DNA of 64,000 nt, taken from NCBI RefSeq assembly GCF_002080435.1, contig NZ_CP020539.1:62001-126000 (forward strand), written 5' to 3'. Origin of the DNA: Sphingobium herbicidovorans (GTDB taxonomy: Bacteria; Pseudomonadota; Alphaproteobacteria; Sphingomonadales; Sphingomonadaceae). The notes under the pieces are model-generated. The model had not been told where the DNA came from, searched no databases, and saw only the letters and a program-made list of their open reading frames with translations. Each line of letters begins with the position of its first letter. Position 1 is the first letter of the stretch. The position numbers were made by a program, and so were the translations under genes. Shown here one piece after another: positions 19,887 to 48,628 of this stretch.

Positions 19887-20863
19887 TCAGGCCTGGGCGA
19901 CGTCATGCCGGCACGGCGTCCGCTGCAGCACCGGCCCGCGGGCCTGCGGCTCCACGCCCCACCCAACAGCCGCCGCGCCGATGCTGTGCAGCAGGTGCTC
20001 CGTGAAGGCACGCACCTTGGCATTGCCTTGCCGCTGGGCCGCAGCAGGTGGATGCCGCTGACCTCGGCCGGCGGCGCGTCCTTCCAGCTGCAGCGCCACG
20101 ATGCGCCGGCCGCCAGGTCTTCGCCGATGGCCCAGTTGGGCATCAGTGCGATGCCCAGGCCGCGCGCCGCGCACAGGCGCCGCGTGTCGCAGTCGTTGCT
20201 CTCCAGCGCCACCTGCGGCGGCTGACGCCAGTCGATGCCGGCCAGCTCGCGCCAGCCACGCACGCTGGTGCTGTGCTGGCGGTCGATCAGCCGGTGCTGC
20301 GCCAGATCGGCCATGCAGCGCGGCGTGCCGTGGCGGCGCAGGTAGGCCGGCGAGGCGCACATCACATAGCGCTGGCTGCCGATGCGCCGGCTGACCAGCG
20401 CGCTGTCGGGCTGGTCGCCGATGCGGATCACGAGGTCGAAGCGCTCGGCCACCGGATCGACCACGCGCTCGGTCAGCTCCAGCTCGACATTCAAGGCTGG
20501 ATAGCGGTCGAACAGCGTGGGCAGGTGCGGGGCCACATGGCGGCGGCCGAACGCGGGCACACAGCTCACGCGCAGCAGGCCCTGCACGCTGCCGTCCAGC
20601 GCCACCACCTCGCTGCGCGTGTCCATGAGCTCGTGCAGGATCTTCAGCGCGCGCTCGTACAACAGCGCACCGGCCTCGGTCAGCGCCAGCGCGCGGGTCG
20701 ATCGCGTGAGCAGCGGCACCTGCATCTCGCGCTCCAGCGCGTCGATCTGCCGGGCCACGGACGAGGCCGCTAGGCCGCGGCGCCGCGCGGCGGCGGAAAA
20801 GCTCTTGTCCTGCACCACGTCGACGAACAGGGAAAGGCTTTCGGCAAAACCCAGGGGATTCAT
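19887..20863 (-). pseudogene. LysR-family regulator, unit 1 (native 3' end, three 1-bp indels)
   Basis: LysR-type activator with an amino-terminal winged helix (FVDVVQDKSFSAAARRRGLA, residues 13-32) and a substrate-binding domain. Compared with units 2 and 3 there are three single-base differences in the 3' third: a C missing near 20027, an extra C near 20082 and a C missing near 20108. Net loss is one base, so the native end (GWGVEPQARGPVLQR...RHDVAQA, stop at 19887) is out of frame and translation would end at 19703. This is the only unit with the natural 3' end (325 residues if repaired). It is divergent from the Bug-receptor operon it probably controls, with 100 bp between starts. The indels may be assembly errors. 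Confidence 0.75.
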
Positions 20864-20963
20864 CTGTGCACCTCACGCAAAGGCGTTTGACCCGCGGGCG
20901 GCATTCCGCTCGCGTGGCGCAAAGAATAGCATCGGCCGCCTCATCCGACCGAGCCTTCACGCC

Positions 20964-21977
20964 ATGCACACACACGAGACACCACGCGCCCACGGGTGCA
21001 TTCCCGCAACAACCCTGCGCCGACGCCAGGCGCTGCTGGGTGCGGCCGCGGCGCTGCTGCTGGCCGGCCCAGGACCGGCGCGTGCCGACGACTACCCCAG
21101 CCGCATGCTCACGCTGATCGTGCCCTTCGCTGCTGGCGGCACCGTGGACAAGGTGGCCCGCATGCTGCAGGAGCCGCTGCGCGAGCGGCTGGGCCAACAG
21201 GTGGTGGTGGACAACCGCGGCGGCGCCGGCGGCACCATCGGCATGGCCCAACTGGCCAAAGGCGCGCCCGACGGCTACACGGTGGCCATGGTGTTCGACT
21301 CCTACGCGACCGAGCAGCACATCCACCGCAAGCTGCCCTACGAGACGCTGCGCGACTTCGCTGGCGTCTCCTATGCCGTGCGCTCGCCCATGGTGCTGGT
21401 GGTGCCCGCGGCTTCTCCCTACAAGACCGTGCAGGACTACGTGGCCGCCGCGCGCCAGCGCGAAGTGACCTACGCCTCGGTGGGCGCTGGCAGCTCTAAC
21501 CACCTGGCGGCCGAGCTGTTCCACGAGACCGCCGGCAGCCGCGGCCTGCACGTGCCCTACAAAGGCGGCGGCCCGGCCATCGCCGACCTGCTGGGCGGCC
21601 ATGTCGATTCGATGATCGCCAGCCTGCCACTGGTGCTGCCGCACGTGCAGGCCGGCAAGCTGCGTGCGCTGGCCGTGACCTCGCAGGCGCGCAGCGCCGC
21701 ACTGCCCCAGGTGCCGGCCGTGGCCGAGGCGCACAAGGGCTTCGAGATCTACTCCTGGGTCGGCATGGTGGCGCCGGCCAAGACGCCCGCGCCGGTGCTG
21801 GACAAGCTCTCGGTGGCGATGGCGGCCACGCTGCGCGACCCGGCGCTGGCGCGCCGCATGGCCGACAACGGCTTCGAGGTGGTGGCCGGCGACCGCGCCG
21901 CCATGGACCAGCTGGTGCAGCGCGAGAGCCAGCGCTGGGGCGAGCTCATCGCCAAGCGCAAGATCAGCGTGGAGTGA
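20964..21977 (+). CDS. Bug/TctC-family periplasmic solute receptor (unit 1)
   Basis: A 337-residue periplasmic binding protein of the Bug (TctC) family, which captures carboxylates or aromatic acids. A Tat-like signal sequence (TLRRRQALLGAAAALLLAG, cut near ARA) is followed by the family start YPSRMLTLIVPFAAGGTVDK, and the ligand-loop tract KGAPDGYTVAM is conserved. These receptors are greatly expanded in Burkholderiales, supporting a betaproteobacterial origin. No TctA/TctB membrane partners are seen, so it may work with a distant permease or as a sensor. ATG at 20964 is chosen over a longer frame from 20517 because it begins the signal peptide. Its stop overlaps the reductase start (GTGA). 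Confidence 0.88.
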   Translation: MHTHETPRAHGCIPATTLRRRQALLGAAAALLLAGPGPARADDYPSRMLTLIVPFAAGGTVDKVARMLQEPLRERLGQQVVVDNRGGAGGTIGMAQLAKGAPDGYTVAMVFDSYATEQHIHRKLPYETLRDFAGVSYAVRSPMVLVVPAASPYKTVQDYVAAARQREVTYASVGAGSSNHLAAELFHETAGSRGLHVPYKGGGPAIADLLGGHVDSMIASLPLVLPHVQAGKLRALAVTSQARSAALPQVPAVAEAHKGFEIYSWVGMVAPAKTPAPVLDKLSVAMAATLRDPALARRMADNGFEVVAGDRAAMDQLVQRESQRWGELIAKRKISVE

Positions 21978-23098
21978 GCGCCGTGCAGAACCAGCCCTTC
22001 ACCTACGAGAGCCGGGCGCAGCGTGTGCTGTTCGGCGCCGGCACGCTGGCGCAGGCGCCGGCCGAGCTGGAGCGGATGGGCGCGCACAAGGCCCTGGTGC
22101 TGTGCACCGCGCCGCAGCGTGCCCAGGCCGAAGCCGTGGCGGCCCTGCTCGGGCCGCGCGCCGCCGGCATCTTCGACGGGGCGGTGATGCACGTGCCCAT
22201 GGCCAGCGCCGAGGCCGCGCGCGCTGCGGCAGCACAGGCCGGCGCCAATGCGCTGGTGGCCGTGGGCGGCGGCTCCACCGTAGGCCTGGCCAAGGCGATT
22301 GCGCTGGTCTCGCCGTTGCCGGTGCTGGCCATCCCCACCACCTACGCGGGCTCGGAGATGACGCCCATCTACGGGCTGACCGAGAACGGCCTCAAGCGCA
22401 CCGGCCGCGACGTGCGCGTGCTGCCGCGCAGCGTGCTGTACGACCCCGAACTCACGTTGGCACTGCCGGTGGGCCTGTCGGTGGTGAGCGGCATCAACGC
22501 CATCGCGCACGCGGCCGAGGGCCTGTACGCGGCCGACGGCAACCCGGTCATGGGCCTGATGGCGGCCGAGGGCATCGCCGCGCTGGGCCGCGCGCTGCCC
22601 GCGCTGCACGCCGCGCCGCACGACCTGCACGCGCGCAGCGATGCGCTGTACGGCGCCTGGCTGTGCGGCCTGGTGCTGGGCAGCGTGTCCATGGCCCTGC
22701 ACCACAAGCTGTGCCACACGCTGGGCGGCAGCTTCAACCTGCCGCACGCCGAGCTGCACACCGTGGTGCTGCCGCACGTGCTGGCCTACAACGCCAAGGC
22801 GGCGCCGCACGCCATGCAGCGCATCGCCGCCGCGCTGGGAACCGCCGATGCCGCGCTGGGCGTGCACACGCTGGCGCGGCGACTGGGCGCACCCACCGCG
22901 CTACGCGACATCGGCATGCGGGAAGAAGACCTGGACAAGGCGTGCGCGCTGGCCCTGCGCGACGCCTACCCCAATCCACGGCCGATCGAGGCTGCGCCGC
23001 TGCGGAACTTGCTGCAGGAGGCGTTCGAAGGTGCGGCGCCGCGGCCGCCAAACCTCTCAACAACACCGACGCAACAAACGACGGAGACGACCCCATGA
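21974..23098 (+). CDS. Maleylacetate reductase (unit 1)
   Basis: A 374-residue iron-containing-alcohol-dehydrogenase-family enzyme that reduces maleylacetate to 3-oxoadipate with NADH, the final step joining chlorocatechol, hydroxyquinol and related pathways to the tricarboxylic acid cycle. The nucleotide-binding GGGSTVGLAKA (residues 98-108), the PTTYAGSEMTPIYGLTE block, the helix INAIAHAAEGLYA, the HHKLCHTLGG tract and the terminal YPNPRP are typical of TfdF/MacA/ClcE-type reductases. GTG start at 21974 overlaps the receptor stop, and the stop overlaps the next ATG, so the three genes are translationally coupled. It could serve herbicide chlorophenol degradation or hydroxyquinol turnover; the dioxygenase remnant at 19535 favours the latter origin. 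Confidence 0.9.
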   Translation: MSAVQNQPFTYESRAQRVLFGAGTLAQAPAELERMGAHKALVLCTAPQRAQAEAVAALLGPRAAGIFDGAVMHVPMASAEAARAAAAQAGANALVAVGGGSTVGLAKAIALVSPLPVLAIPTTYAGSEMTPIYGLTENGLKRTGRDVRVLPRSVLYDPELTLALPVGLSVVSGINAIAHAAEGLYAADGNPVMGLMAAEGIAALGRALPALHAAPHDLHARSDALYGAWLCGLVLGSVSMALHHKLCHTLGGSFNLPHAELHTVVLPHVLAYNAKAAPHAMQRIAAALGTADAALGVHTLARRLGAPTALRDIGMREEDLDKACALALRDAYPNPRPIEAAPLRNLLQEAFEGAAPRPPNLSTTPTQQTTETTP

Positions 23099-24021
23099 CA
23101 CGTCTACAAACCTGCATCGCCGCAGGCGGCTCCGGCACGCCGCCAGAGCGCACTGTGCAGGCGCGCGTCGTCGCCCAGCAGTCTGGCCCCTCCTTCCTCG
23201 AAAGCATCGCCGAGGGCCCGGACCGCGCCTTGTATGTCACCGACTTCCACAACCGCCAGCTGTTGCGCTACGTGGACGACAAGGGATTCAGCGTGCACGC
23301 CCGGCTCGACGTCCATCCATGGGGCATGGTGTTCGACAGCGATGGCACGCTGTACTTCGGTGCGGCCGAGCGCGGCATCGTGGACAAGACCTCGCCGCCC
23401 ACGCAGTGGGTCTGGCGCCAACGCCGCGGCGAGGCACCGCAACCCTTTCTGAAGATCGAGCAGGCACGCGCGCTGAACGGCATGACCCTGCTCGCGCCAG
23501 GCCGCATCCTGATCGCCGACGGCCGCGGCGGCACGGTATGGCTGCTCGATGTCGCCGCCCGCAGCGCCAGCCCCTTCGTGCGCGACGCGCTACTGGATGT
23601 GCCACCCGGCTTCGCGCTGCCCACACCGGCCGCGAACGGCCTGAAGATCCACGCCGGGCACCTGTACGTTTCCAACACGGCGCGCGTGGCCATGTTGCGC
23701 ATTCCGCTCGGTGCCGACTTGCGGCCCGGCGCCGTGCAGGTCTTCGTGGAACCGCTGCGCGCGGACGACTTCGCTTTCTCCCCGAGCGGCAACCTGTATG
23801 TCACCACGCACCGGCGCGAAATCCTGCGCGTCACCCCTGAGGGACGCGTCTCGGAGGTGCCAGGCATCGGACCCGAACTGGTGGGCAGCACTGCCATGGT
23901 CTGGCGCAGCGGCGAACACAGCGCCTACGCCATCAACGATGGCGGCTTCATCGGCTTCCACTGGTACGGGGGCTCCACGCCCACGGCCTCGAACCTGGTG
24001 CGGCTCGACGGGCTGGACTGA
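23095..24021 (+). CDS. SMP-30/gluconolactonase-like beta-propeller protein (unit 1)
   Basis: A 308-residue protein with repeating blade motifs (GPDRALYVTDFHNRQLLRYV, FDSDGTLYFGAAE, GRILIADGRGGTVWLLD, SPSGNLYVTTHRREILRVT) characteristic of six-bladed SMP-30/strictosidine-synthase-like propellers, which include lactonases. No signal peptide is seen, so it is probably cytoplasmic. As the third gene of the coupled operon it might hydrolyse a lactone intermediate or be a structural relative with another role; the exact reaction is unknown. The ATG at 23095 overlaps the reductase stop (ATGA). Confidence 0.75.
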   Translation: MTRLQTCIAAGGSGTPPERTVQARVVAQQSGPSFLESIAEGPDRALYVTDFHNRQLLRYVDDKGFSVHARLDVHPWGMVFDSDGTLYFGAAERGIVDKTSPPTQWVWRQRRGEAPQPFLKIEQARALNGMTLLAPGRILIADGRGGTVWLLDVAARSASPFVRDALLDVPPGFALPTPAANGLKIHAGHLYVSNTARVAMLRIPLGADLRPGAVQVFVEPLRADDFAFSPSGNLYVTTHRREILRVTPEGRVSEVPGIGPELVGSTAMVWRSGEHSAYAINDGGFIGFHWYGGSTPTASNLVRLDGLD

Positions 24022-24110
24022 GCGGTTGTGCATCTCTGGCGGGCCCTGACGCCAAGGTGGCATGCCCCACCCTCGCTGTTCCATGCGGAGAACACCCCAG
24101 CCGGCCCGCA

Positions 24111-24896
24111 TCAGCGCCCCAGAAAGTCAGGCTTTTGGCGCGCGAAGAACGCGTCCACGCCGGTGCGGAAATCGTCCGTCGCGGCGCACACCTGGAACGC
24201 CGCCGACTCCGCATCAAGCTGCTCGGGCAGCGCGCGGTCAAAGCTCGCGCGCATGAGCCGGCGCAGCTGGCCCAGCGCCACCGTCGGGCCATTGGCCAGC
24301 CGCTGCGCCAGCGCCATGGCTTCGCCCGCCAGCGCATCGGCCGGCACCACGCGGTTGACCAGGCCCATGCGCTCGGCCGCCGCCGCGTCGAGCATGTCGC
24401 CCAGCATGGCGATCTCCAGCGCACGGCGCAGGCCGACCCAGCGCGGCAGCGCCCAGGAGGCACCCACGTCGCAGCTCGTGCCGATGTTCACGTAGGCCAG
24501 GTTGAAGCGCGTGCCCTCGGCCGCGAGCACGAAGTCGGCCTGCAGCATGAGCGACAGGCCGGCGCCGGCCGCCACGCCGTGCACCTGGGCCACCACGGGC
24601 GCATCGATGCCGGCCAGCACCACCAGCGCCTCGTGCAGCGGGCCGATCAGCGCCTTGGCGCCGCCCTGCGGATCGGCCTGCAGCACCGCCAGGTCGCCGC
24701 CGGCCATGAAGCCCTTGCCGCTGCCCGACAGCAGCACGGCGCGCACGCTGCTGTCGGCGGCGATGTCGCGCACGGCCGCGAGAAAGCCCTCGGCCATGGG
24801 CACGTCCAGCGCATTGAGCGTGGCCGGGCGGTTGAAGCGCAGCGTGGCGACCGCGCCTTCGCGGCCGATCTGCAGGGGGGCGTCGTCTTGCGTCAT
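24111..24896 (-). CDS. Enoyl-CoA hydratase/isomerase-family protein (unit 1)
   Basis: A 261-residue crotonase-fold enzyme acting on a CoA thioester. The two oxyanion-hole segments are visible (SGSGKGFMAGGDL, residues 57-69; VHGVAAGAGLSLMLQADF, residues 105-122). At the usual catalytic position the sequence is NIGTSCDVGASWALPR, with Asp143 rather than Glu as the obvious acid, so it may be an isomerase or a ring-cleaving hydrolase rather than a classical hydratase. It converges with the propeller gene and overlaps the end of the upstream tetR remnant by 4 bp. The start at 24896 follows that ATGA overlap; longer frames upstream belong to tetR DNA. Confidence 0.85.
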   Translation of the reverse strand: MTQDDAPLQIGREGAVATLRFNRPATLNALDVPMAEGFLAAVRDIAADSSVRAVLLSGSGKGFMAGGDLAVLQADPQGGAKALIGPLHEALVVLAGIDAPVVAQVHGVAAGAGLSLMLQADFVLAAEGTRFNLAYVNIGTSCDVGASWALPRWVGLRRALEIAMLGDMLDAAAAERMGLVNRVVPADALAGEAMALAQRLANGPTVALGQLRRLMRASFDRALPEQLDAESAAFQVCAATDDFRTGVDAFFARQKPDFLGR

Positions 24897-25449
24897 GCGG
24901 GGCTCTTTCGTGGTGCGCGCCGGCCCGGTTGGCGGGTGGCGGCAGCTGGGGGAACAGGGGGAACGGCGGGAACGGGGGCGAGCACGCCGCCCAGCAGCAG
25001 CGCAATGCCCTGCTCGGCGATCTGCTCGGGCGCCATGGCGCCGTCGGGCCGGTACCAGCGGCCGATCCAGCTCAGCGCGCCGGCCAGCATGAAGGCCGCC
25101 AGCTTGGGATCGCAGGGCTGCAGCGAGCCTTCGGCAATGCCCTCTTCGACCAGCCGGCGGAACTCGTGGTCGATGCCGGCCTTGAGCCGGCGCAGCTCCT
25201 TGCGCAGCGGCGGCGGCAGCGGGTCTTCGCCGATGCGGATCACGCACTGGCCGAAGTCGTCCATCACGATGGCCGCGTAGCTGCGCATGCAGGCCTGCAG
25301 CTGGTCCAGCGCGCGGCCGCCCTGCTGGCGCACCTCGGCAATGCCCTCCTGCATCATGGCCAGCGCCGCGCGCACGCATTCGAGCAGGATGTCGTCCTTG
25401 CTCTTGACGTAGTAGTACAGCGTGGGCTTGCTCACATGGAGCTTCTTAT
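24893..25449 (-). pseudogene. TetR-family regulator, 5' end replaced by IS1595-element DNA (unit 1)
   Basis: From the HTH recognition helix onward (LHVSKPTLYYYVKSKDDILL) the protein is a normal TetR-type regulator with a helical ligand domain and a proline-rich tail. The first half of the HTH is missing, because sequence upstream of about 25449 belongs to the insertion element. The frame stays open through the element end to an ATG at 25492, so a 199-residue hybrid starting MLDEITVSMGLLELNKK could be made, but it lacks the helix preceding the recognition helix and probably does not bind the original operator. It overlaps the crotonase gene, which it may once have controlled. Confidence 0.8.
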
Positions 25450-26514
25450 TTAGCTCCAGCAGCCCCATTGATACTGTGATTTCATCCAGCAATGGTATCC
25501 GATTGGCTCTCCCCGGTGTTCTTGCTCACGACATCCCCATACGTCACTGGCGGCGTAACCACCGCTTGCTGCAGCAAGCGGTAAAACAGCATCCCGCGTG
25601 AGCTGGATGTGCGCCGGTTGAAACGGAACACGAATTCATCGAGATAGGCGTCCAGGTGGTCTGGCTGTACAGAGCCATGATGTGTTCCCAGCACCCAGCG
25701 CTGTACCAGTGAGGCGACCCGGTGCACTCCCGCCATGGAGACATGGGCAGGTACGCCTGAGCCGAGCATGACGGTGCGCTGGTGGGTGTAACCCAGTTCT
25801 CCCAGAGCGCGGTATGCCGCCGAACCATCCGTGCGTACCTGGGCTCCAGGCTCGACCACCTCCTGCACAAAGGGGATTACGTGGGTGGCGGCGTCTCGGT
25901 CAATGCGGCGTAACCGGATGCGCCCAAACCCCTTGGGCTCCACGATCTCCACCGCCATGACCATCAACACTTTGGTGGTGCTGCTCTTGCGCCCTGCAGG
26001 GGTGGCGGGATTCTTGCGATCCGTGATGGACAGGTACGTTTCATCCACCTCCACAAGCCCCTTGAGCTTGTCCCGGCCCGGGCGGACCATGGCACGTCGA
26101 AACCGGTGCAGCATGGTCCAGGCGGTCTGGTAGCTCCCCAAACCCAATACGCGCTGCAGCCCCAGGGCGCTCACGCCTTGTTTCTGATTGGTCAGGTACC
26201 AAGCTGCAGCCAGCCAGACACGCAGCGGTGTGCGCGTCTTGTCAAAGATGGTTCCAGATGTCACTGTGCCTTGGTACTGGCATGAGCGGCACATCAGGCG
26301 GGTGCGGCTGGCGCGGTACACATCGCCAGCGTTGCCGCAACGCGGGCAGACGAAGCCTTGGGGCCACCGAAGCTTCTCCAGGAACGCCTGGCAAGCCTCT
26401 TCGGTGGCAAACCAGTCAAGAAATTCGTTCCAGGTGCGGGGGTAGTCCCCTCCAGGAGTTGGCGTTAGCATCTGGGTTTCCATCCAGCTATTCTCACGTC
26501 ACTGGAGCTAAATA
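25447..26514 (-). mobile_element. IS1595-family insertion element (unit 1)
   Basis: About 1.07 kb bounded by a 13-bp inverted repeat (TATTTAGCTCCAG at 25447-25459, its complement at 26502-26514) and containing one IS1595-type transposase gene. The exact ends are uncertain: the outer GGAGCTAAATAGATACC also appears at 29342 next to IS91-like DNA without this element, so part of the repeat may belong to the neighbouring element. Confidence 0.75.
25482..26483 (-). CDS. tnpA: IS1595-family transposase (unit 1)
   Basis: A 333-residue DDE-type transposase. An amino-terminal zinc ribbon (CPRCG at 46-50 and CRSCQ at 65-69) precedes the IS1595/ISXO2 catalytic domain, with Asp137 in GLVEVDETYLS and Asp209 in VRTDGSAAY, then the family tract LGTHHGSVQPDHLDAYLDEF ending FRFNRR. 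Length and order fit the family. ATG at 26483 is followed at once by a plausible start. It is read away from the adjacent IS91-like element. Confidence 0.9.
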   Translation of the reverse strand: METQMLTPTPGGDYPRTWNEFLDWFATEEACQAFLEKLRWPQGFVCPRCGNAGDVYRASRTRLMCRSCQYQGTVTSGTIFDKTRTPLRVWLAAAWYLTNQKQGVSALGLQRVLGLGSYQTAWTMLHRFRRAMVRPGRDKLKGLVEVDETYLSITDRKNPATPAGRKSSTTKVLMVMAVEIVEPKGFGRIRLRRIDRDAATHVIPFVQEVVEPGAQVRTDGSAAYRALGELGYTHQRTVMLGSGVPAHVSMAGVHRVASLVQRWVLGTHHGSVQPDHLDAYLDEFVFRFNRRTSSSRGMLFYRLLQQAVVTPPVTYGDVVSKNTGESQSDTIAG

Positions 26515-28280
26515 GATACCCCTTGCATTTGTACAGTATTCATGTCAGCCACTTCCAAGCCCAAGCTCTACAACCCACGCCACCCCGAACGCACGCTGCT
26601 CTACCAAACGGTAGCCGAGCACTACGAGACCTGGCTAGAGTTGGCCAGCGCGGGTCAGTTCGACGGCCAGGGCGACCACCACACCCCCAAGCCCTTCGTG
26701 CGCAAAGCGTTTGCCAAGTATCTTGAGTGCGGCATCTTTGCCCATGGCTTTGCCCGCGCTCGCTGCGGCGACTGTGGGCACGACTACTTTGTAGCCTTCT
26801 CCTGCAAAGGCCGGGGAGTCTGCCCCTCGTGCACCACGCGGCGGATGGTGGAGACGGCGGCACACCTGAGCGACCACGTTTTCCCCCGCCTGCCGGTGCG
26901 CCAGTGGGTGCTGTCCGTGCCCAAGCGGCTTCGGTACTTCATGCAACGCGACGGAGCGGTGCTGAGCATGGTGCTGCGCATCTTTCTGCGGGTGATCGCA
27001 CAAACTCTGCAGACCCACAGCCCCGGTGCGGCCCATATGGACAAGGCAGGCCTGCACATCGGTGCCATCGCCTTCATTCACCGATTCGGCTCCGGCCTCA
27101 ATGAACACGTCCACTTCCACGTTTGTGTGGTGGACGGGGTGTTTGAGGAAGTGGAGGGCGAGGGCGATGCTGATGCGACCCCTCGAATCTCATCGCCGGG
27201 TGTCATCTTTCACGCGGCCACCGGCATCGATGCGGCTACCGTGGCCCCAGTGCAGACCACACTGCAAAAACGTATCCTGCGCGCCTTCGTTGCTCGGGGC
27301 CTGCTGGAGAACTGTGACGCCAAAGACATGCTGGGCTACAAACACAGCGGCTTCTCGGTGGACGCCGGTGTCTGCATCGAAGCCCACGACCGCGCTGCGC
27401 TGGAGCGGCTGCTGCGCTATTGCGCGCGTCCACCATTTTCCATCGAGCGCCTACGCAAAGAGGGAAGCAAACTGGTGTACCGCTGTGCCAAACAGCGCAG
27501 CGAGCCCACCAGTGACAAGCGTGGTGCCAAGGCAGATGAGCTGCACCTCACACCGCTGGAACTGATCGACCGCATCGCCGCGCTGGTGCCACCGCCACGC
27601 ACCCACCGGCACCGCTACTTTGGTGTGCTGGCACCAAACTCGCCGCTGAGAGCGGCGGTAACGGCGCTGGCTCAGCCTGCTGCGTCGCAACCAGCCACGG
27701 TGGAGACTGCACAACCTGGCGCGGGCGTACCTGGGGTGGCGGCGCCGGGCAACGCGGCCACACCCACACCCGAACCTGAAGCACGCCCGAAGCGAGCGGC
27801 GCATTACTTGTGGGCGGTGCTGATTGCCCGCATCTACGAGGCATTTCCGCTGCTGTGCCCCATGTGCGGTGGGCAGATGCGCATCATTGCCTTCATCACC
27901 CACAGCGCCGAAATCCGCCACATCCTGAACCACATCGGGGTGGAGTCTGCCCCCCCGCACATCACCCCGGCACGCGGGCCACCGCTGTGGGAGGGCTGCG
28001 ACGCGCCGGTGGATGATGGTGCGCAAGGCGAGCCGGATTGGGATCTGGCAGCTCAACCCGACGAGGTAGACCAGCGCGTCAATTGGTGACCCAGTGAAGC
28101 GGCGGTATCCATCGCTGCGGGGAAGCAGCTGCGCGCGCGCCAGGCCCAAATGCATACTGCCTCCCAAGCTCTTGCCATTGAGCGGCAAGCGAGCGCTCAA
28201 CCTTCCTTGGCCGAACGTGTTTCGAGGCCCAAAACTCGTGCCATACTTGGCCTCATGCGGTTGAATTTCCTATCTGGATT
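26504..28280 (+). mobile_element. IS91-like rolling-circle element, complete copy (unit 1)
   Basis: Runs from GGAGCTAAATAGATACC (26504), through an intact transposase gene and about 190 bp of 3' sequence, to the terminus CATGCGGTTGAATTTCCTATCTGGATT at 28280 (quoted in part: GCGGTTGAATTTCC). The 3' terminal tract is shared with the other copies. No inverted repeats are expected for this family. Confidence 0.8.
26542..28089 (+). CDS. tnpA: IS91-family transposase, intact (unit 1)
   Basis: A 515-residue HUH-type replicative transposase. An amino-terminal zinc finger (Cys63, Cys75, Cys78, Cys88, Cys94, Cys97) is followed by the HUH metal motif His179-x-His181-x-His183, and a candidate catalytic Tyr273 in LLRYCARPPFSIERL. 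A proline/alanine-rich linker (about 350-395) joins a carboxyl-terminal CPMCGGQMRIIAFI segment. Only one obvious catalytic tyrosine in the motif resembles ISCR-type relatives more than classical two-tyrosine IS91. Rolling-circle transposition of this type can mobilise adjacent DNA, a plausible route by which sdpA reached this locus. Confidence 0.9.
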   Translation: MSATSKPKLYNPRHPERTLLYQTVAEHYETWLELASAGQFDGQGDHHTPKPFVRKAFAKYLECGIFAHGFARARCGDCGHDYFVAFSCKGRGVCPSCTTRRMVETAAHLSDHVFPRLPVRQWVLSVPKRLRYFMQRDGAVLSMVLRIFLRVIAQTLQTHSPGAAHMDKAGLHIGAIAFIHRFGSGLNEHVHFHVCVVDGVFEEVEGEGDADATPRISSPGVIFHAATGIDAATVAPVQTTLQKRILRAFVARGLLENCDAKDMLGYKHSGFSVDAGVCIEAHDRAALERLLRYCARPPFSIERLRKEGSKLVYRCAKQRSEPTSDKRGAKADELHLTPLELIDRIAALVPPPRTHRHRYFGVLAPNSPLRAAVTALAQPAASQPATVETAQPGAGVPGVAAPGNAATPTPEPEARPKRAAHYLWAVLIARIYEAFPLLCPMCGGQMRIIAFITHSAEIRHILNHIGVESAPPHITPARGPPLWEGCDAPVDDGAQGEPDWDLAAQPDEVDQRVNW

Positions 28281-30316: not shown

Positions 30317-30330
30317 CGTATCATCGGCGC

Positions 30331-40426: not shown

Positions 40427-40457
40427 TACACTGGCGAAAACGATCAGGAGGATTCGC

Positions 40458-41321
40458 ATGTCACCCGCCTTCGACATCGCCCCGCTCGACGCCACGTTCG
40501 GCGCCGTCGTCACCGGCGTGAAGCTCGCCGATCTCGATGATGCCGGATGGCTCGACCTGCAGGCTGCCTGGCTCGAGTACGCACTCCTCGTTTTCCCCGA
40601 TCAGCATCTCACGCGCGAGCAGCAGATCGCCTTTGCCCGTCGCTTCGGGCCACTCGAGTTCGAGATGGCCGCGATCAGCAACGTGCGGCCCGACGGCAGC
40701 CTGCGGGTCGAGAGCGACAACGACGACATGATGAAGATCCTGAAGGGCAACATGGGCTGGCATGCCGACAGCACCTACATGCCGGTCCAGGCCAAGGGCG
40801 CGGTGTTCAGTGCCGAAGTGGTTCCTAGCGTCGGCGGCCAGACCGGCTTCGCCGACATGCGCGCGGCCTACGACGCGCTCGACGAGGATCTGAAGGCGCG
40901 CGTCGAGACGCTGCAGGCCCGGCACTCGCTGCATTACAGCCAGTCGAAGCTCGGCCACCAGACCAAGGCGGCCGACGGTGAATATAGCGGCTACGGGCTG
41001 CATGACGGGCCGGTGCCGCTGCGGCCGCTGGTGAAGATCCATCCCGAGACCGGCCGCAAGTCGCTGCTGATCGGCCGCCACGCCCACGCCATTCCCGGCT
41101 TGGAGCCAGCCGAGTCCGAACGCTTGCTGCAGCAGCTGATCGACTTCGCCTGCCAGCCGCCGCGAATCTATCATCACGACTGGGCGCCGGGCGACGCCGT
41201 GCTGTGGGACAATCGCTGCCTGCTGCACCAGGCGACGCCGTGGGACATGACCCAGAAGCGCATCATGTGGCACAGCCGCATCGCCGGCGACCCGGCCAGC
41301 GAGACCGCGCTGGCGCATTGA
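40458..41321 (+). CDS. sdpA: SdpA-type phenoxypropionate dioxygenase (unit 2)
   Basis: Second intact copy, 287 residues, same iron and 2-oxoglutarate ligands and the same AGGAGG ribosome-binding site as the copy at 29453. Its presence doubles the dosage of the first herbicide-cleaving step. Confidence 0.9.
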   Translation: MSPAFDIAPLDATFGAVVTGVKLADLDDAGWLDLQAAWLEYALLVFPDQHLTREQQIAFARRFGPLEFEMAAISNVRPDGSLRVESDNDDMMKILKGNMGWHADSTYMPVQAKGAVFSAEVVPSVGGQTGFADMRAAYDALDEDLKARVETLQARHSLHYSQSKLGHQTKAADGEYSGYGLHDGPVPLRPLVKIHPETGRKSLLIGRHAHAIPGLEPAESERLLQQLIDFACQPPRIYHHDWAPGDAVLWDNRCLLHQATPWDMTQKRIMWHSRIAGDPASETALAH

Positions 41322-41335
41322 CGTATCATCGGCGC

Positions 41336-41655
41336 ATGAAGCTGGCCCGACGCGACGCGTTGCGAGGAACGGCGGCGATGGCCGTCGCAGGGCTGATCGG
41401 CGGCCGAGCCCATGCCGCCACGGAGGCGGTCCGCCTGATCTGCGGCTTCGGCGTCGGCAACCCGACAGACCTCTGCGCCCAGCTGATCCAGGACGGCTTC
41501 TCGGCCGCGCTCAACGAGCCCGTCGAGTTCGACTATACGCTGGGCCAGGCTGGACGCCGGGCCGCCCTCCAGGTGATCGACGCCGAGCCCGACGGGCGGA
41601 TGCTGTTGATCGCCGAAATCCTGAACCTGGTATTGCAGGAGACGCCGGCCGAGCT
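41336..41655 (+). pseudogene. Second Bug/TctC-like receptor, 3' truncated (unit 2)
   Basis: Repeat of the truncated gene at 30331, with the same fusion to IS1595-element DNA. Confidence 0.75.
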
Positions 41656-42002
41656 GCTCTTGCGCCCTGCAGGGGTGGCGGGATTCTTGCGATCCGTGAT
41701 GGACAGGTACGTTTCATCCACCTCCACAAGCCCCTTGAGCTTGTCCCGGCCCGGGCGGACCATGGCACGTCGAAACCGGTGCAGCATGGTCCAGGCGGTC
41801 TGGTAGCTCCCCAAACCCAATACGCGCTGCAGCCCCAGGGCGCTCACGCCTTGTTTCTGATTGGTCAGGTACCAAGCTGCAGCCAGCCAGACACGCAGCG
41901 GTGTGCGCGTCTTGTCAAAGATGGTTCCAGATGTCACTGTGCCTTGGTACTGGCATGAGCGGCACATCAGGCGGGTGCGGCTGGCGCGGTACACATCGCC
42001 AG
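41653..42002 (-). mobile_element. Internal 350-bp fragment of the IS1595 element (unit 2/3 junction)
   Basis: Same fragment and same CAG junction with lysR as at 30648-30997. Confidence 0.9.
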
Positions 42003-42872
42003 GTGCTCCGTGAAGGCACGCACCTTGGCATTCGCCTTGCCGCTGGGCCGCAGCAGGTGGATGCCGCTGACCTCGGCCGGCGGCGCGTCTTCCAGCTGCA
42101 GCGCCACGATGCGCCCGGCCGCCAGGTCTTCGCCGATGGCCCAGTTGGGCATCAGTGCGATGCCCAGGCCGCGCGCCGCGCACAGGCGCCGCGTGTCGCA
42201 GTCGTTGCTCTCCAGCGCCACCTGCGGCGGCTGACGCCAGTCGATGCCGGCCAGCTCGCGCCAGCCACGCACGCTGGTGCTGTGCTGGCGGTCGATCAGC
42301 CGGTGCTGCGCCAGATCGGCCATGCAGCGCGGCGTGCCGTGGCGGCGCAGGTAGGCCGGCGAGGCGCACATCACATAGCGCTGGCTGCCGATGCGCCGGC
42401 TGACCAGCGCGCTGTCGGGCTGGTCGCCGATGCGGATCACGAGGTCGAAGCGCTCGGCCACCGGATCGACCACGCGCTCGGTCAGCTCCAGCTCGACATT
42501 CAAGGCTGGATAGCGGTCGAACAGCGTGGGCAGGTGCGGGGCCACATGGCGGCGGCCGAACGCGGGCACACAGCTCACGCGCAGCAGGCCCTGCACGCTG
42601 CCGTCCAGCGCCACCACCTCGCTGCGCGTGTCCATGAGCTCGTGCAGGATCTTCAGCGCGCGCTCGTACAACAGCGCACCGGCCTCGGTCAGCGCCAGCG
42701 CGCGGGTCGATCGCGTGAGCAGCGGCACCTGCATCTCGCGCTCCAGCGCGTCGATCTGCCGGGCCACGGACGAGGCCGCTAGGCCGCGGCGCCGCGCGGC
42801 GGCGGAAAAGCTCTTGTCCTGCACCACGTCGACGAACAGGGAAAGGCTTTCGGCAAAACCCAGGGGATTCAT
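41967..42872 (-). CDS. LysR-family regulator with chimeric carboxyl end (unit 3)
   Basis: Same 301-residue hybrid as at 30962, again ending in residues translated from antisense IS1595-element DNA. Confidence 0.8.
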   Translation of the reverse strand: MNPLGFAESLSLFVDVVQDKSFSAAARRRGLAASSVARQIDALEREMQVPLLTRSTRALALTEAGALLYERALKILHELMDTRSEVVALDGSVQGLLRVSCVPAFGRRHVAPHLPTLFDRYPALNVELELTERVVDPVAERFDLVIRIGDQPDSALVSRRIGSQRYVMCASPAYLRRHGTPRCMADLAQHRLIDRQHSTSVRGWRELAGIDWRQPPQVALESNDCDTRRLCAARGLGIALMPNWAIGEDLAAGRIVALQLEDAPPAEVSGIHLLRPSGKANAKVRAFTEHLAMCTAPAAPA

Positions 42873-42972
42873 CTGTGCACCTCACGCAAAGGCGTTTGAC
42901 CCGCGGGCGGCATTCCGCTCGCGTGGCGCAAAGAATAGCATCGGCCGCCTCATCCGACCGAGCCTTCACGCC

Positions 42973-43986
42973 ATGCACACACACGAGACACCACGCGCCC
43001 ACGGGTGCATTCCCGCAACAACCCTGCGCCGACGCCAGGCGCTGCTGGGTGCGGCCGCGGCGCTGCTGCTGGCCGGCCCAGGACCGGCGCGTGCCGACGA
43101 CTACCCCAGCCGCATGCTCACGCTGATCGTGCCCTTCGCTGCTGGCGGCACCGTGGACAAGGTGGCCCGCATGCTGCAGGAGCCGCTGCGCGAGCGGCTG
43201 GGCCAACAGGTGGTGGTGGACAACCGCGGCGGCGCCGGCGGCACCATCGGCATGGCCCAACTGGCCAAAGGCGCGCCCGACGGCTACACGGTGGCCATGG
43301 TGTTCGACTCCTACGCGACCGAGCAGCACATCCACCGCAAGCTGCCCTACGAGACGCTGCGCGACTTCGCTGGCGTCTCCTATGCCGTGCGCTCGCCCAT
43401 GGTGCTGGTGGTGCCCGCGGCTTCTCCCTACAAGACCGTGCAGGACTACGTGGCCGCCGCGCGCCAGCGCGAAGTGACCTACGCCTCGGTGGGCGCTGGC
43501 AGCTCTAACCACCTGGCGGCCGAGCTGTTCCACGAGACCGCCGGCAGCCGCGGCCTGCACGTGCCCTACAAAGGCGGCGGCCCGGCCATCGCCGACCTGC
43601 TGGGCGGCCATGTCGATTCGATGATCGCCAGCCTGCCACTGGTGCTGCCGCACGTGCAGGCCGGCAAGCTGCGTGCGCTGGCCGTGACCTCGCAGGCGCG
43701 CAGCGCCGCACTGCCCCAGGTGCCGGCCGTGGCCGAGGCGCACAAGGGCTTCGAGATCTACTCCTGGGTCGGCATGGTGGCGCCGGCCAAGACGCCCGCG
43801 CCGGTGCTGGACAAGCTCTCGGTGGCGATGGCGGCCACGCTGCGCGACCCGGCGCTGGCGCGCCGCATGGCCGACAACGGCTTCGAGGTGGTGGCCGGCG
43901 ACCGCGCCGCCATGGACCAGCTGGTGCAGCGCGAGAGCCAGCGCTGGGGCGAGCTCATCGCCAAGCGCAAGATCAGCGTGGAGTGA
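42973..43986 (+). CDS. Bug/TctC-family periplasmic solute receptor (unit 3)
   Basis: Third intact copy of the receptor (offset 22,009 bp from unit 1), 337 residues. Confidence 0.88.
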   Translation: MHTHETPRAHGCIPATTLRRRQALLGAAAALLLAGPGPARADDYPSRMLTLIVPFAAGGTVDKVARMLQEPLRERLGQQVVVDNRGGAGGTIGMAQLAKGAPDGYTVAMVFDSYATEQHIHRKLPYETLRDFAGVSYAVRSPMVLVVPAASPYKTVQDYVAAARQREVTYASVGAGSSNHLAAELFHETAGSRGLHVPYKGGGPAIADLLGGHVDSMIASLPLVLPHVQAGKLRALAVTSQARSAALPQVPAVAEAHKGFEIYSWVGMVAPAKTPAPVLDKLSVAMAATLRDPALARRMADNGFEVVAGDRAAMDQLVQRESQRWGELIAKRKISVE

Positions 43987-45103
43987 GCGCCGTGCAGAAC
44001 CAGCCCTTCACCTACGAGAGCCGGGCGCAGCGTGTGCTGTTCGGCGCCGGCACGCTGGCGCAGGCGCCGGCCGAGCTGGAGCGGATGGGCGCGCACAAGG
44101 CCCTGGTGCTGTGCACCGCGCCGCAGCGTGCCCAGGCCGAAGCCGTGGCGGCCCTGCTCGGGCCGCGCGCCGCCGGCATCTTCGACGGGGCGGTGATGCA
44201 CGTGCCCATGGCCAGCGCCGAGGCCGCGCGCGCTGCGGCAGCACAGGCCGGCGCCAATGCGCTGGTGGCCGTGGGCGGCGGCTCCACCGTAGGCCTGGCC
44301 AAGGCGATTGCGCTGGTCTCGCCGTTGCCGGTGCTGGCCATCCCACCTACGCGGGCTCGGAGATGACGCCCATCTACGGGCTGACCGAGAACGGCCTCAA
44401 GCGCACCGGCCGCGACGTGCGCGTGCTGCCGCGCAGCGTGCTGTACGACCCCGAACTCACGTTGGCACTGCCGGTGGGCCTGTCGGTGGTGAGCGGCATC
44501 AACGCCATCGCGCACGCGGCCGAGGGCCTGTACGCGGCCGACGGCAACCCGGTCATGGGCCTGATGGCGGCCGAGGGCATCGCCGCGCTGGGCCGCGCGC
44601 TGCCCGCGCTGCACGCCGCGCCGCACGACCTGCACGCGCGCAGCGATGCGCTGTACGGCGCCTGGCTGTGCGGCCTGGTGCTGGGCAGCGTGTCCATGGC
44701 CCTGCACCACAAGCTGTGCCACACGCTGGGCGGCAGCTTCAACCTGCCGCACGCCGAGCTGCACACCGTGGTGCTGCCGCACGTGCTGGCCTACAACGCC
44801 AAGGCGGCGCCGCACGCCATGCAGCGCATCGCCGCCGCGCTGGGAACCGCCGATGCCGCGCTGGGCGTGCACACGCTGGCGCGGCGACTGGGCGCACCCA
44901 CCGCGCTACGCGACATCGGCATGCGGGAAGAAGACCTGGACAAGGCGTGCGCGCTGGCCCTGCGCGACGCCTACCCCAATCCACGGCCGATCGAGGCTGC
45001 GCCGCTGCGGAACTTGCTGCAGGAGGCGTTCGAAGGTGCGGCGCCGCGGCCGCCAAACCTCTCAACAACACCGACGCAACAAACGACGGAGACGACCCCA
45101 TGA
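43983..45103 (+). pseudogene. Maleylacetate reductase, 4-bp deletion (unit 3)
   Basis: Compared with units 1 and 2, four bases are lost at about 44343 (GGCCATCCCACCTACGCGGG here, four bases longer there), so the frame breaks after residue 121 in the tract LAIPTTYAGSEM. Translation from the normal start ends at 44366 (127 residues). The remainder of the gene is otherwise identical on reading. Confidence 0.85.
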
Positions 45104-46022
45104 CACGTCTACAAACCTGCATCGCCGCAGGCGGCTCCGGCACGCCGCCAGAGCGCACTGTGCAGGCGCGCGTCGTCGCCCAGCAGTCTGGCCCCTCCTT
45201 CCTCGAAAGCATCGCCGAGGGCCCGGACCGCGCCTTGTATGTCACCGACTTCCACAACCGCCAGCTGTTGCGCTACGTGGACGACAAGGGATTCAGCGTG
45301 CACGCCCGGCTCGACGTCCATCCATGGGGCATGGTGTTCGACAGCGATGGCACGCTGTACTTCGGTGCGGCCGAGCGCGGCATCGTGGACAAGACCTCGC
45401 CGCCCACGCAGTGGGTCTGGCGCCAACGCCGCGGCGAGGCACCGCAACCCTTTCTGAAGATCGAGCAGGCACGCGCGCTGAACGGCATGACCCTGCTCGC
45501 GCCAGGCCGCATCCTGATCGCCGACGGCCGCGGCGGCACGGTATGGCTGCTCGATGTCGCCGCCCGCAGCGCCAGCCCCTTCGTGCGCGACGCGCTACTG
45601 GATGTGCCACCCGGCTTCGCGCTGCCCACACCGGCCGCGAACGGCCTGAAGATCCACGCCGGGCACCTGTACGTTTCCAACACGCGCGCGTGGCCATGTT
45701 GCGCATTCCGCTCGGTGCCGACTTGCGGCCCGGCGCCGTGCAGGTCTTCGTGGAACCGCTGCGCGCGGACGACTTCGCTTTCCCCGAGCGGCAACCTGTA
45801 TGTCACCACGCACCGGCGCGAAATCCTGCGCGTCACCCCTGAGGGACGCGTCTCGGAGGTGCCAGGCATCGGACCCGAACTGGTGGGCAGCACTGCCATG
45901 GTCTGGCGCAGCGGCGAACACAGCGCCTACGCCATCAACGATGGCGGCTTCATCGGCTTCCACTGGTACGGGGGCTCACGCCCACGGCCTCGAACCTGGT
46001 GCGGCTCGACGGGCTGGACTGA
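45100..46022 (+). pseudogene. SMP-30-like beta-propeller gene, several small deletions (unit 3)
   Basis: Three lesions relative to units 1 and 2: one base near 45683 (CAACACGCGCGCG), two bases near 45780 (GCTTTCCCCGAGC) and one base near 45977 (GGCTCACGCC). The frame is lost in the last third. Another single base is missing in the following noncoding DNA near 46072. Such clustering suggests decay or poor consensus quality. Confidence 0.85.
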
Positions 46023-46110
46023 GCGGTTGTGCATCTCTGGCGGGCCCTGACGCCAAGGTGGCATGCCCCACCTCGCTGTTCCATGCGGAGAACACCCCAG
46101 CCGGCCCGCA

Positions 46111-46896
46111 TCAGCGCCCCAGAAAGTCAGGCTTTTGGCGCGCGAAGAACGCGTCCACGCCGGTGCGGAAATCGTCCGTCGCGGCGCACACCTGGAACGC
46201 CGCCGACTCCGCATCAAGCTGCTCGGGCAGCGCGCGGTCAAAGCTCGCGCGCATGAGCCGGCGCAGCTGGCCCAGCGCCACCGTCGGGCCATTGGCCAGC
46301 CGCTGCGCCAGCGCCATGGCTTCGCCCGCCAGCGCATCGGCCGGCACCACGCGGTTGACCAGGCCCATGCGCTCGGCCGCCGCCGCGTCGAGCATGTCGC
46401 CCAGCATGGCGATCTCCAGCGCACGGCGCAGGCCGACCCAGCGCGGCAGCGCCCAGGAGGCACCCACGTCGCAGCTCGTGCCGATGTTCACGTAGGCCAG
46501 GTTGAAGCGCGTGCCCTCGGCCGCGAGCACGAAGTCGGCCTGCAGCATGAGCGACAGGCCGGCGCCGGCCGCCACGCCGTGCACCTGGGCCACCACGGGC
46601 GCATCGATGCCGGCCAGCACCACCAGCGCCTCGTGCAGCGGGCCGATCAGCGCCTTGGCGCCGCCCTGCGGATCGGCCTGCAGCACCGCCAGGTCGCCGC
46701 CGGCCATGAAGCCCTTGCCGCTGCCCGACAGCAGCACGGCGCGCACGCTGCTGTCGGCGGCGATGTCGCGCACGGCCGCGAGAAAGCCCTCGGCCATGGG
46801 CACGTCCAGCGCATTGAGCGTGGCCGGGCGGTTGAAGCGCAGCGTGGCGACCGCGCCTTCGCGGCCGATCTGCAGGGGGGCGTCGTCTTGCGTCAT
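46111..46896 (-). CDS. Enoyl-CoA hydratase/isomerase-family protein (unit 3)
   Basis: Third intact copy, 261 residues. Confidence 0.85.
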   Translation of the reverse strand: MTQDDAPLQIGREGAVATLRFNRPATLNALDVPMAEGFLAAVRDIAADSSVRAVLLSGSGKGFMAGGDLAVLQADPQGGAKALIGPLHEALVVLAGIDAPVVAQVHGVAAGAGLSLMLQADFVLAAEGTRFNLAYVNIGTSCDVGASWALPRWVGLRRALEIAMLGDMLDAAAAERMGLVNRVVPADALAGEAMALAQRLANGPTVALGQLRRLMRASFDRALPEQLDAESAAFQVCAATDDFRTGVDAFFARQKPDFLGR

Positions 46897-47449
46897 GCGG
46901 GGCTCTTTCGTGGTGCGCGCCGGCCCGGTTGGCGGGTGGCGGCAGCTGGGGGAACAGGGGGAACGGCGGGAACGGGGGCGAGCACGCCGCCCAGCAGCAG
47001 CGCAATGCCCTGCTCGGCGATCTGCTCGGGCGCCATGGCGCCGTCGGGCCGGTACCAGCGGCCGATCCAGCTCAGCGCGCCGGCCAGCATGAAGGCCGCC
47101 AGCTTGGGATCGCAGGGCTGCAGCGAGCCTTCGGCAATGCCCTCTTCGACCAGCCGGCGGAACTCGTGGTCGATGCCGGCCTTGAGCCGGCGCAGCTCCT
47201 TGCGCAGCGGCGGCGGCAGCGGGTCTTCGCCGATGCGGATCACGCACTGGCCGAAGTCGTCCATCACGATGGCCGCGTAGCTGCGCATGCAGGCCTGCAG
47301 CTGGTCCAGCGCGCGGCCGCCCTGCTGGCGCACCTCGGCAATGCCCTCCTGCATCATGGCCAGCGCCGCGCGCACGCATTCGAGCAGGATGTCGTCCTTG
47401 CTCTTGACGTAGTAGTACAGCGTGGGCTTGCTCACATGGAGCTTCTTAT
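46893..47449 (-). pseudogene. TetR-family regulator, 5' end missing (unit 3)
   Basis: Third copy of the beheaded regulator, with the same open hybrid frame to 47492. Confidence 0.8.
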
Positions 47450-48329
47450 TTAGCTCCAGCAGCCCCATTGATACTGTGATTTCATCCAGCAATGGTATCC
47501 GATTGGCTCTCCCCGGTGTTCTTGCTCACGACATCCCCATACGTCACTGGCGGCGTAACCACCGCTTGCTGCAGCAAGCGGTAAAACAGCATCCCGCGTG
47601 AGCTGGATGTGCGCCGGTTGAAACGGAACACGAATTCATCGAGATAGGCGTCCAGGTGGTCTGGCTGTACAGAGCCATGATGTGTTCCCAGCACCCAGCG
47701 CTGTACCAGTGAGGCGACCCGGTGCACTCCCGCCATGGAGACATGGGCAGGTACGCCTGAGCCGAGCATGACGGTGCGCTGGTGGGTGTAACCCAGTTCT
47801 CCCAGAGCGCGGTATGCCGCCGAACCATCCGTGCGTACCTGGGCTCCAGGCTCGACCACCTCCTGCACAAAGGGGATTACGTGGGTGGCGGCGTCTCGGT
47901 CAATGCGGCGTAACCGGATGCGCCCAAACCCCTTGGGCTCCACGATCTCCACCGCCATGACCATCAACACTTTGGTGGTGCTGCTCTTGCGCCCTGCAGG
48001 GGTGGCGGGATTCTTGCGATCCGTGATGGACAGGTACGTTTCATCCACCTCCACAAGCCCCTTGAGCTTGTCCCGGCCCGGGCGGACCATGGCACGTCGA
48101 AACCGGTGCAGCATGGTCCAGGCGGTCTGGTAGCTCCCCAAACCCAATACGCGCTGCAGCCCCAGGGCGCTCACGCCTTGTTTCTGATTGGTCAGGTACC
48201 AAGCTGCAGCCAGCCAGACACGCAGCGGTGTGCGCGTCTTGTCAAAGATGGTTCCAGATGTCACTGTGCCTTGGTACTGGCATGAGCGGCACATCAGGCG
48301 GGTGCGGCTGGCGCGGTACACATCGCCAG
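47447..48329 (-). mobile_element. IS1595-family element, 5' part of tnpA deleted (unit 3)
   Basis: Identical to the complete element up to the CAG at 48327-48329, where lysR DNA follows directly. The piece between 47980 and 48329 corresponds to the 350-bp fragment found at the other unit junctions, exactly as expected if homologous recombination between the complete element and the fragment deleted everything between them. Confidence 0.9.
47482..48329 (-). pseudogene. tnpA: IS1595 transposase lacking its amino terminus, fused to lysR antisense (unit 3)
   Basis: Transposase residues from about 52 (GDVYRASRTRL) to the normal end are present, with half of the zinc ribbon lost. The frame remains open through 48330 into lysR DNA and on into IS6100-like copy 2 (to 48672), an accidental 396-codon frame. 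Confidence 0.85.
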
Positions 48330-48628
48330 GTGCTCCGTGAAGGCACGCACCTTGGCATTCGCCTTGCCGCTGGGCCGCAGCAGGTGGATGCCGCTGACCT
48401 CGGCCGGCGGCGCGTCTTCCAGCTGCAGCGCCACGATGCGCCCGGCCGCCAGGTCTTCGCCGATGGCCCAGTTGGGCATCAGTGCGATGCCCAGGCCGCG
48501 CGCCGCGCACAGGCGCCGCGTGTCGCAGTCGTTGCTCTCCAGCGCCACCTGCGGCGGCTGACGCCAGTCGATGCCGGCCAGCTCGCGCCAGCCACGCACG
48601 CTGGTGCTGTGCTGGCGGTCGATCAGCC
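48330..48628 (-). pseudogene. LysR 3' fragment cut by IS6100-like copy 2 (unit 4)
   Basis: 299 bp of lysR, from the unit boundary to GCGGTCGATCAGCC where the insertion sequence begins. It shows that at least one further unit existed to the right before an IS6100-adjacent deletion. Confidence 0.9.

Follow-up and report, generated by a model that had tools for sequence, protein, structure and literature searches.

Tandem repetition of genes is a known route to an extra gene dose. RecA-dependent duplication and amplification in bacteria is exemplified by the atzB arrays of Pseudomonas sp. ADP and the tfd duplications of pJP4. Elements of the IS6 family are likewise able to make tandem arrays, in which one copy of the IS (for example IS26) is expected at every joint between adjacent units. 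In an array made by rolling-circle transposition of an IS91-like element, the unit joint is expected at the terminus of that element. In sphingomonads, catabolic segments bracketed by IS6100 are known for the lin genes. Finally, the IncP-1 soil plasmids pAKD16 and pAKD34 (JN106167, JN106175) carry a catabolic block with the order lysR-receptor-alcohol dehydrogenase-hypothetical-crotonase-(tetR)-ISCsp2-ISPps1-sdpA, which is annotated once in these plasmids.

The same block order is found in the DNA of Sphingobium herbicidovorans analyzed here, a stretch of 64,000 nucleotides that is called the window. In contrast to pAKD16 and pAKD34, which possess a transfer and replication backbone, the window contains the block as an array and with a different sdpA. 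The array shares with RecA-dependent amplifications the head-to-tail identical units, the single novel joint, the catabolic cargo and the likely loss of DNA by recombination between repeats. It differs in that the founding joint looks illegitimate (3 bp) and does not lie between IS copies, and in that the block is part of a captured plasmid fragment. As in the known IS6100-bracketed segments, two direct copies of an element, which we take to be IS6100, surround catabolic DNA; here, however, the cargo is an IncP-1 fragment, and no matching target duplication accompanies the piece with sdpA. No prior account of the array was found in titles or the opening parts of abstracts, which is not proof of absence. 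A description of the genome and mobilome of S. herbicidovorans MH, reportedly by Nielsen et al. in 2017, may already cover the array region.

Anatomy of the array

Self-BLAST resolved positions 19992–48630 of the window as a head-to-tail array of two full 11.0-kb units, a shortened third and a fragment of a fourth, the number of units being that of the assembly. Positions 19992–37333 equal 30995–48329 over 17,345 columns with 0 mismatches and 9 gaps; furthermore, 19992–26329 recurs at 42000–48329, and 19992–20294 at 48327–48630. A search of the complete genome located all copies in one place on contig C2 (959,196 bp). All features listed below are given for the + strand. Unit 1 (19992–30997, ~11.0 kb), whose first 3 bp are a microhomology, contains in this order lysR, a receptor gene, Fe-ADH, an NHL-type gene, crotonase, tetR, ISCsp2, ISPps1, sdpA, a truncated receptor gene and a piece of ISCsp2. 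Unit 2 (30998–42002, 11,005 bp) is also full, and of all copies it agrees best with pAKD34. The 3' part of ISPps1 (1,062 bp) is present twice in tandem at 27219–29341 (38223–40346 in unit 2), and both copies have the same right end. It is followed by an 81-bp ISCsp2/ISPps1 left-end piece ahead of sdpA (29341–29421), which is identical to 26503–26583.

A sequence-only reading had proposed two complete units and parts of two more. The head-to-tail arrangement was borne out by self-BLAST and by the joint word found at every unit boundary, and two units are indeed full; the two partial units need a more precise description. Unit 3 (42003–48329) is without the equivalent of 26330–30997, i.e. 4,668 bp with ISPps1 and sdpA: its sequence enters ISCsp2 and then directly meets the joint. 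The 4,668-bp gap lies between two direct repeats of 350 bp. This ISCsp2 stretch (25980–26329) is exactly repeated at 30648–30997, 36984–37333, 41653–42002 and 47980–48329, and these repeats are the likely substrate of the deletion. Unit 4 (48330–48630) comprises 301 bp of the 3' half of lysR, cut by the right-hand IS6100 copy with a 2-bp overlap (GG). The same reading had correctly counted two copies of sdpA. Its three lysR-receptor-crotonase sets hold for receptor and crotonase, which are intact in three units, and not for lysR: in units 2 and 3 the gene keeps 290 of 321 residues and reads its tail residues from ISCsp2, and in unit 1 a frameshift lies close to its end. As the sequence stands, unit 3 carries frameshifts in its Fe-ADH and NHL-type genes. 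The start had been placed at 19995; the array begins at 19992, and the enclosing plasmid fragment at 12727, well to the left.

Instead of the few single-base differences reported previously, we counted 9 indels of 1–4 nt and not one substitution between the units over 17.3 kb. The odd copy is unit 1 at four of these sites and unit 3 at five. Eight indels were judged directly against pAKD34; for the one at 29012, the remaining copies of that 1,062-bp ISPps1 piece served as the reference. Compared with pAKD34, ten indel events cluster at 19624–20106, seven of them to the left of the array, and unit 3 has five private indels at 44343–46071; these clusters are a sign of a weak consensus at the left edge and in unit 3. 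As unit 2 agrees with pAKD34, the indels between units are probably consensus errors. Evolved divergence was set aside, because all nine differences are indels and unit 2 matches an outside reference. All three units have a 9-bp deletion relative to pAKD34 in common, as expected for copies of one template. Together with the lack of substitutions and the common joint, this deletion gives good support to the earlier view that the amplification is recent.

Differences that are exclusively indels and occur in patches also resemble poorly polished gap filling, so that an assembler might have expanded a repeat with fewer units, or with one. We consider such an artefact quite unlikely, since the units exist in three different forms and the array has unique anchors on both sides, namely native IncP-1 sequence on the left and IS6100 on the right. 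Moreover, the joint word is absent from the native single-copy order; therefore at least one duplication joint is real unless it is chimeric.

The joint between units

The novel joint (30978–31017) connects the interior of ISCsp2 with the 3' end of lysR and has a 3-bp microhomology (CAG). Each of the three unit boundaries has the 40-mer that spans 30997/30998 (at 30978, 41983 and 48310), and the native left edge of the array occurs once. The joint lies within ISCsp2 and at no IS end; this location and the 3 bp in common argue against arrays of the IS6 type and of the rolling-circle type. The bracketing of the region by IS6100 would be in line with an amplification of IS26-like translocatable units. 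In the window, however, IS6100 is found only at 11846, 48629 and 63225 (the last copy runs past the end) and never between units, which makes this mechanism extremely improbable. For a rolling-circle transposition by the IS91-like ISPps1 one can cite its presence in each full unit and the tandem repetition of its 3' part with an exact right end. As the units are joined inside ISCsp2 and not at an end of ISPps1, it is very improbable that the 11-kb array originated in this way, and both types of array were set aside. The 1,062-bp repeat, and the way in which modules were assembled, may be due to rolling-circle activity of ISPps1. According to our own estimate, a 3-bp overlap is expected by chance at ~5% of random joints and is thus weak evidence for a mechanism. 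Judged from the sequences, an illegitimate duplication that was followed by homologous exchange fits best.

IncP-1 origin and IS6100 copies

The array is contained in an IncP-1 fragment that is near-identical to pAKD34 and pAKD16 and lies between two directly oriented copies of IS6100. Positions 12727–28175 are colinear with pAKD34 at 99.82% (1 mismatch, 13 gap openings). According to this colinearity and to the annotation, the remnant at 12727–19991 has preserved the native order up to the array; it comprises the kle-klc region, toxin/antitoxin-type genes, an IS1071-family piece and a variant of ISPps1. Comparison of three plasmid stretches with the window gave no match to the right of 48630. 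The part of pAKD34 outside the window-like region was compared with the S. herbicidovorans genome for 67,722 of 70,964 bp (queries of 12,763, 18,000, 20,000 and 16,959 bp; 3,242 bp were left out), considering the best 40 candidates per query. The matches were a second IncP-1 piece with an rdpA homologue, shared IS DNA, sdpA at 70%, 685 bp on contig C3 at 84%, and weaker ones. Plasmid transfer or replication genes had no close match among these best 40 candidates for each query of the 67,722 bp. The IncP-1 origin, the IS6100 brackets and the consensus-error appearance of the small differences do not feature in the sequence-only reading.

The genome contains nine near-full copies of the IS6100-like element and two diverged partial matches. 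Copy A (11846–12726, with 14-bp terminal repeats at 11846 and 12713–12726) is the left bracket and copy B (48629–49510), whose transposase matches DDE_Tnp_IS240, the right one; both are in + orientation around the cargo. Their 8-bp flanks do not match each other, and thus there is no sign that the sdpA piece was captured by one cointegration. Instead, the left flank of copy A matches the copy at C2:57863, and the arrangement of the two is of the inversion type. The rdpA homologue is located ~0.26 kb past the window in the second IncP-1 piece (C2:126107–131344), which adjoins IS6100 copies C and D. An identical 8-bp sequence (CCGAGGAA) stands at either end of this piece; about 0.002 chance matches are expected among the flank comparisons. 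If the ends of this piece are joined, the resulting 80-mer is contiguous in pAKD34. Both observations are expected if the target of IS6100 was a circular molecule. The rdpA piece further has an ISPps1-kefB joint of its own, which is at no IS end.

At the time IS6100 joined it, the rdpA piece was probably circular, either by itself or within a circular plasmid. By analogy, an excised 11-kb circle, in which the ISCsp2 piece is joined to lysR, could have recombined by homology into the resident block once or repeatedly and would have produced the same final array. This route is unlikely: such a circle was not seen, a simple tandem duplication takes fewer steps, and whole-plasmid integration with a subsequent deletion accounts for the rdpA piece equally well.

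Taken as a whole, the following history, which includes the illegitimate duplication and homologous exchange, appears rather probable to us. This sphingomonad would have received a conjugative herbicide plasmid of the IncP-1 group, closely similar to pAKD16/pAKD34, and pieces of the plasmid would have been kept in the 959-kb replicon between IS6100 copies. The 11-kb accessory block from lysR to sdpA, including ISCsp2 and ISPps1, would then have been duplicated when the interior of an ISCsp2 copy became joined to lysR, at its 3' end, through a 3-bp stretch common to both. The resulting long direct repeats would have allowed a RecA-type unequal exchange to add further units, and an exchange between 350-bp ISCsp2 repeats to remove ISPps1 and sdpA from unit 3. 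The insertion of copy B that cut the fourth unit would have come after joint formation. That the endpoints of the array and of the deletion are at exact repeats was counted in favor of this history. The order of events and the role of RecA are inferred, as is the benefit: an extra dose would help growth on 2-aryloxypropionates. The dosage of sdpA is not favored as the sole driver, because unit 3 has kept everything except this portion and because the repeated joint truncates lysR. The proposed history suggests how herbicide genes of a broad-host-range plasmid may become fixed in a sphingomonad step by step: fragments are kept between IS6100 copies, the backbone is lost and a block is amplified. 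The event is of a known kind, yet it is unusually legible, as the stitching steps can be read in the sequence.

Identity and possible origin of sdpA

The sdpA gene (copy 1 at 29453–30316, copy 2 at 40458–41321) codes for a protein of 287 residues from the TauD/TfdA family (PF02668, E 8.4e-64). The residues H102, D104 and H257 (HxD...H), which presumably bind the metal, are invariant among six aligned sequences. The protein is 64% identical to the annotated SdpA of pAKD34, and among solved structures a chain of a 2,4-D dioxygenase is the best hit (E 4.4e-46). Three NCBIfam models match, none of them at its cut-off (best: taurine dioxygenase, 153.9 versus 313 bits). By homology, sdpA is a probable gene for a herbicide-degrading enzyme, an (S)-2-aryloxypropionate dioxygenase. 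The suggested link of the module to herbicides is reasonable on the same grounds, given the similarity to SdpA of pAKD34 and the nearby rdpA homologue.

Inheritance of this sdpA from a pAKD-like plasmid was ruled out by the DNA match of 70%. Of 397 genomes of the family, which were taken from a larger group, 141 had some match to the sdpA segment at E <= 0.001; this match was full-length in the own genome only, and the best match elsewhere covers 95 bp at 75%. A scan of 29200–31100 for sigma-70 promoters gave 0 promoter-like sites (0.3 are expected in shuffled sequences). Of 119 aligned sequences, 81 are close homologues, and at eight positions SdpA has residues that fewer than 10% of these contain. 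None of the eight rare residues is in common with SdpA of the pAKD plasmids, and no convergent pattern was seen; adaptive change in SdpA was set aside.

The segment at 29421–30647, which consists of ~32 bp upstream of sdpA, sdpA and the start of a receptor gene, matches loci of the Reyranella type. Its DNA is 95.4% identical over 890 columns and 93.2% over 354 columns to one such locus (L025), and 91.1% over 1,249 columns to another (L027). One may tentatively assume, although we regard it as doubtful, that the allele comes from a Reyranella-like chromosome and was picked up as a scrap of 1.23 kb, which brought along only ~32 bp of native upstream DNA. It would have been placed behind an end of ISPps1 on an IncP-1 plasmid, at the site that is occupied in pAKD16 and pAKD34 by a different sdpA, whose relatives look betaproteobacterial. 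Two unrelated donors would then have supplied the same function at one docking site, and the incoming allele, with little native promoter sequence, would have been amplified afterwards. Reyranella-type chromosomes are a plausible natural source of the allele, and its original substrate becomes a testable question.

Structure and gene content of the array

In a comparison of the window with itself, 19992-37333 equals 30995-48329 with no mismatches and nine gaps, 42000-48329 equals 19992-26329, and a further unit begins at 48327-48630. The word spanning the joint 30997/30998 occurs at three sites (30978, 41983 and 48310), that of the native left edge at one. All copies of the array are located on C2, the replicon of 959,196 bp that contains the window; elsewhere in the genome (4.24 Mb in total here) only partial or IS-type matches were found among the 40 of 205 candidates that were scored. 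These three results establish that the array is present in the assembly, well above chance. The repeat is head to tail, as the sequence-only reading had claimed, and its count of two complete units and parts of two more was confirmed. Units 1 (19992-30997) and 2 (30998-42002) have the full length of 11.0 kb, unit 3 (42003-48329) lacks 4,668 bp that comprise ISPps1 and sdpA, and unit 4 (48330-48630) consists of 301 bp and is interrupted by IS6100 copy B (48629-49510). Overall, the array truly exists in the assembly; it is of an ordinary kind, and its details are informative.

A full unit contains genes for LysR, a tripartite-tricarboxylate receptor, an Fe-containing alcohol dehydrogenase (Fe-ADH), an NHL-type protein (weak match), a crotonase, TetR and a TauD/TfdA dioxygenase, plus ISCsp2 (IS1595 type) and ISPps1 (IS91 type). 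The reading frames of receptor, crotonase and TetR are intact in three units. Of the 321 LysR residues, units 2 and 3 retain 290; in the sequence as given, unit 1 LysR and the Fe-ADH and NHL-type genes of unit 3 are frameshifted. The three lysR-receptor-crotonase sets proposed previously thus hold for receptor and crotonase, but not for a complete lysR. The 3' part of ISPps1 forms a 1,062-bp tandem repeat at 27219-29341 and 38223-40346, and the exact right end closes each copy.

Formation of the array and differences between units

The joint connects the interior of ISCsp2 with that of lysR, and the two have 3 bp in common there; no shared word of more than 10 bp was found within 500 bp on either side. 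This favours an illegitimate joint as the first step, followed by exchange between the long repeats. Arrays of IS6-type units are expected to leave an IS at each joint; this origin was ruled against, because the unit joints contain none. Unit 3 runs through a repeated 350-bp stretch of ISCsp2 and then directly into the joint. As these 350-bp repeats are exact, its loss of 4,668 bp can be explained by one exchange; with sdpA missing from unit 3, loss also occurs in the array. The DNA cut by IS6100 copy B sits behind a joint, from which we infer that the joint predates this cut. Selection for herbicide use is a plausible cause of the array.

Instead of the few single-base differences noted originally, the units differ by nine indels and no substitution. 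Eight sites were judged directly against the IncP-1 plasmid pAKD34, and site 29012 against the remaining copies of the ISPps1 piece in which it lies; the odd unit is unit 1 at four sites and unit 3 at five. Over 30995-39179, the only deviations of unit 2 from pAKD34 are two gaps, of 9 and 2 bp, both common to all three units. Compared to the related plasmid pAKD16 it has no mismatches and a single gap; the column count identifies this gap as the one of 9 bp. Between window and pAKD34, one gap and one mismatch were found in 12727-19623, and ten indel events in 19624-20106, of which seven lie to the left of the array. The chromate region flanking the array is 100.0% identical over 4.65 kb to one Sphingopyxis plasmid. 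The indel clusters are probably consensus errors.

Origin of the IncP-1 fragment and of sdpA

The stretch 12727-28175 is colinear with pAKD34 (1 mismatch, 13 gap openings) and matches pAKD16 in two pieces without mismatch. Both plasmids are described as IncP-1 epsilon plasmids from soils polluted with mercury or 2,4-D (PMC7728920). The fragment with the array is flanked by IS6100 copies A (11846-12726) and B. For the pAKD34 genes of transfer and replication, only weak partial matches and no close one were found in the genome (67,722 of the 70,964 bp of this plasmid that lie beyond its window-like part were searched; 40 candidates scored per search). The remnant also contains a 482-bp perfect tandem repeat (16181-17144), which is double in pAKD34 and single in pAKD16.

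The name sdpA for the putative dioxygenase gene of the window (29453-30316 and 40458-41321) rests on homology. The best solved relative of its product is a 2,4-D dioxygenase, and none of the NCBIfam models matched at its cut-off. Identity to the pAKD sdpA is 70% for DNA and 64% for protein. The exact right end of ISPps1 precedes both alleles, with an additional 81-bp IS piece at the window allele. Among the matches listed, at least 11 of 64 public loci encoding sdpA relatives show a DNA alignment that starts at 29421-29433, continues across the next gene and ends at 30653-30667, with 80-95% identity; their titles name Reyranella (6), Rhodospirillales (3) and Rhodospirillaceae (2). In all three aligning loci tested, the next gene encodes a tripartite-tricarboxylate receptor; the window retains only its start, which alone has no Pfam match. 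In the protein search with the window SdpA, a minority of the 120 rows carry an organism name, and those of them that rank near the top belong to Reyranella. These findings suggest a Reyranella-type donor of the segment; as the best identity is 95%, the actual donor may be an unsampled one. The donor of the pAKD34 sdpA is less certain, because organism names occur on only 3 of 120 rows (all Burkholderiales or Burkholderiaceae, 67-81%) and the nearest relatives, at 89-90%, are not among these.

IS6100 copies and flanking regions

Just right of the window, a second IncP-1 fragment (C2:126107-131344) with an rdpA homologue lies between IS6100 copies C and D; it also carries ISPps1 and a kefB fragment. 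Among the flanks of nine IS6100 copies there are two 8-bp matches. One links C with D: this segment of 5,238 bp has the duplication CCGAGGAA at both ends, and its ends, when joined, give a word contiguous in pAKD34. Both observations indicate that the target was a circular molecule, either the whole plasmid, reduced later, or a small circle. The other links the left flank of copy A with the copy at C2:57863-58744. This match has an inverted arrangement and suggests that IS6100 made an inversion of about 15 kb to the left of the array.

With eleven Sphingobium replicons among the matches listed, the left flank shares 78-81% identity, which indicates a sphingomonad. A region with a chromate transporter and ChrB (49511-54163) has 99.8-100% identity on 9 of 20 plasmid records among the matches listed. 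A Fic-domain protein is encoded at 59186-60475, between IS6100 copies B and C. Right of copy D, positions 7848-17193 of the adjoining locus L015 comprise genes of Fe-ADH, muconate-cycloisomerase-like, AraC-type and ferredoxin-reductase-like proteins and TonB receptor parts in two ORFs, perhaps a chlorocatechol cluster.
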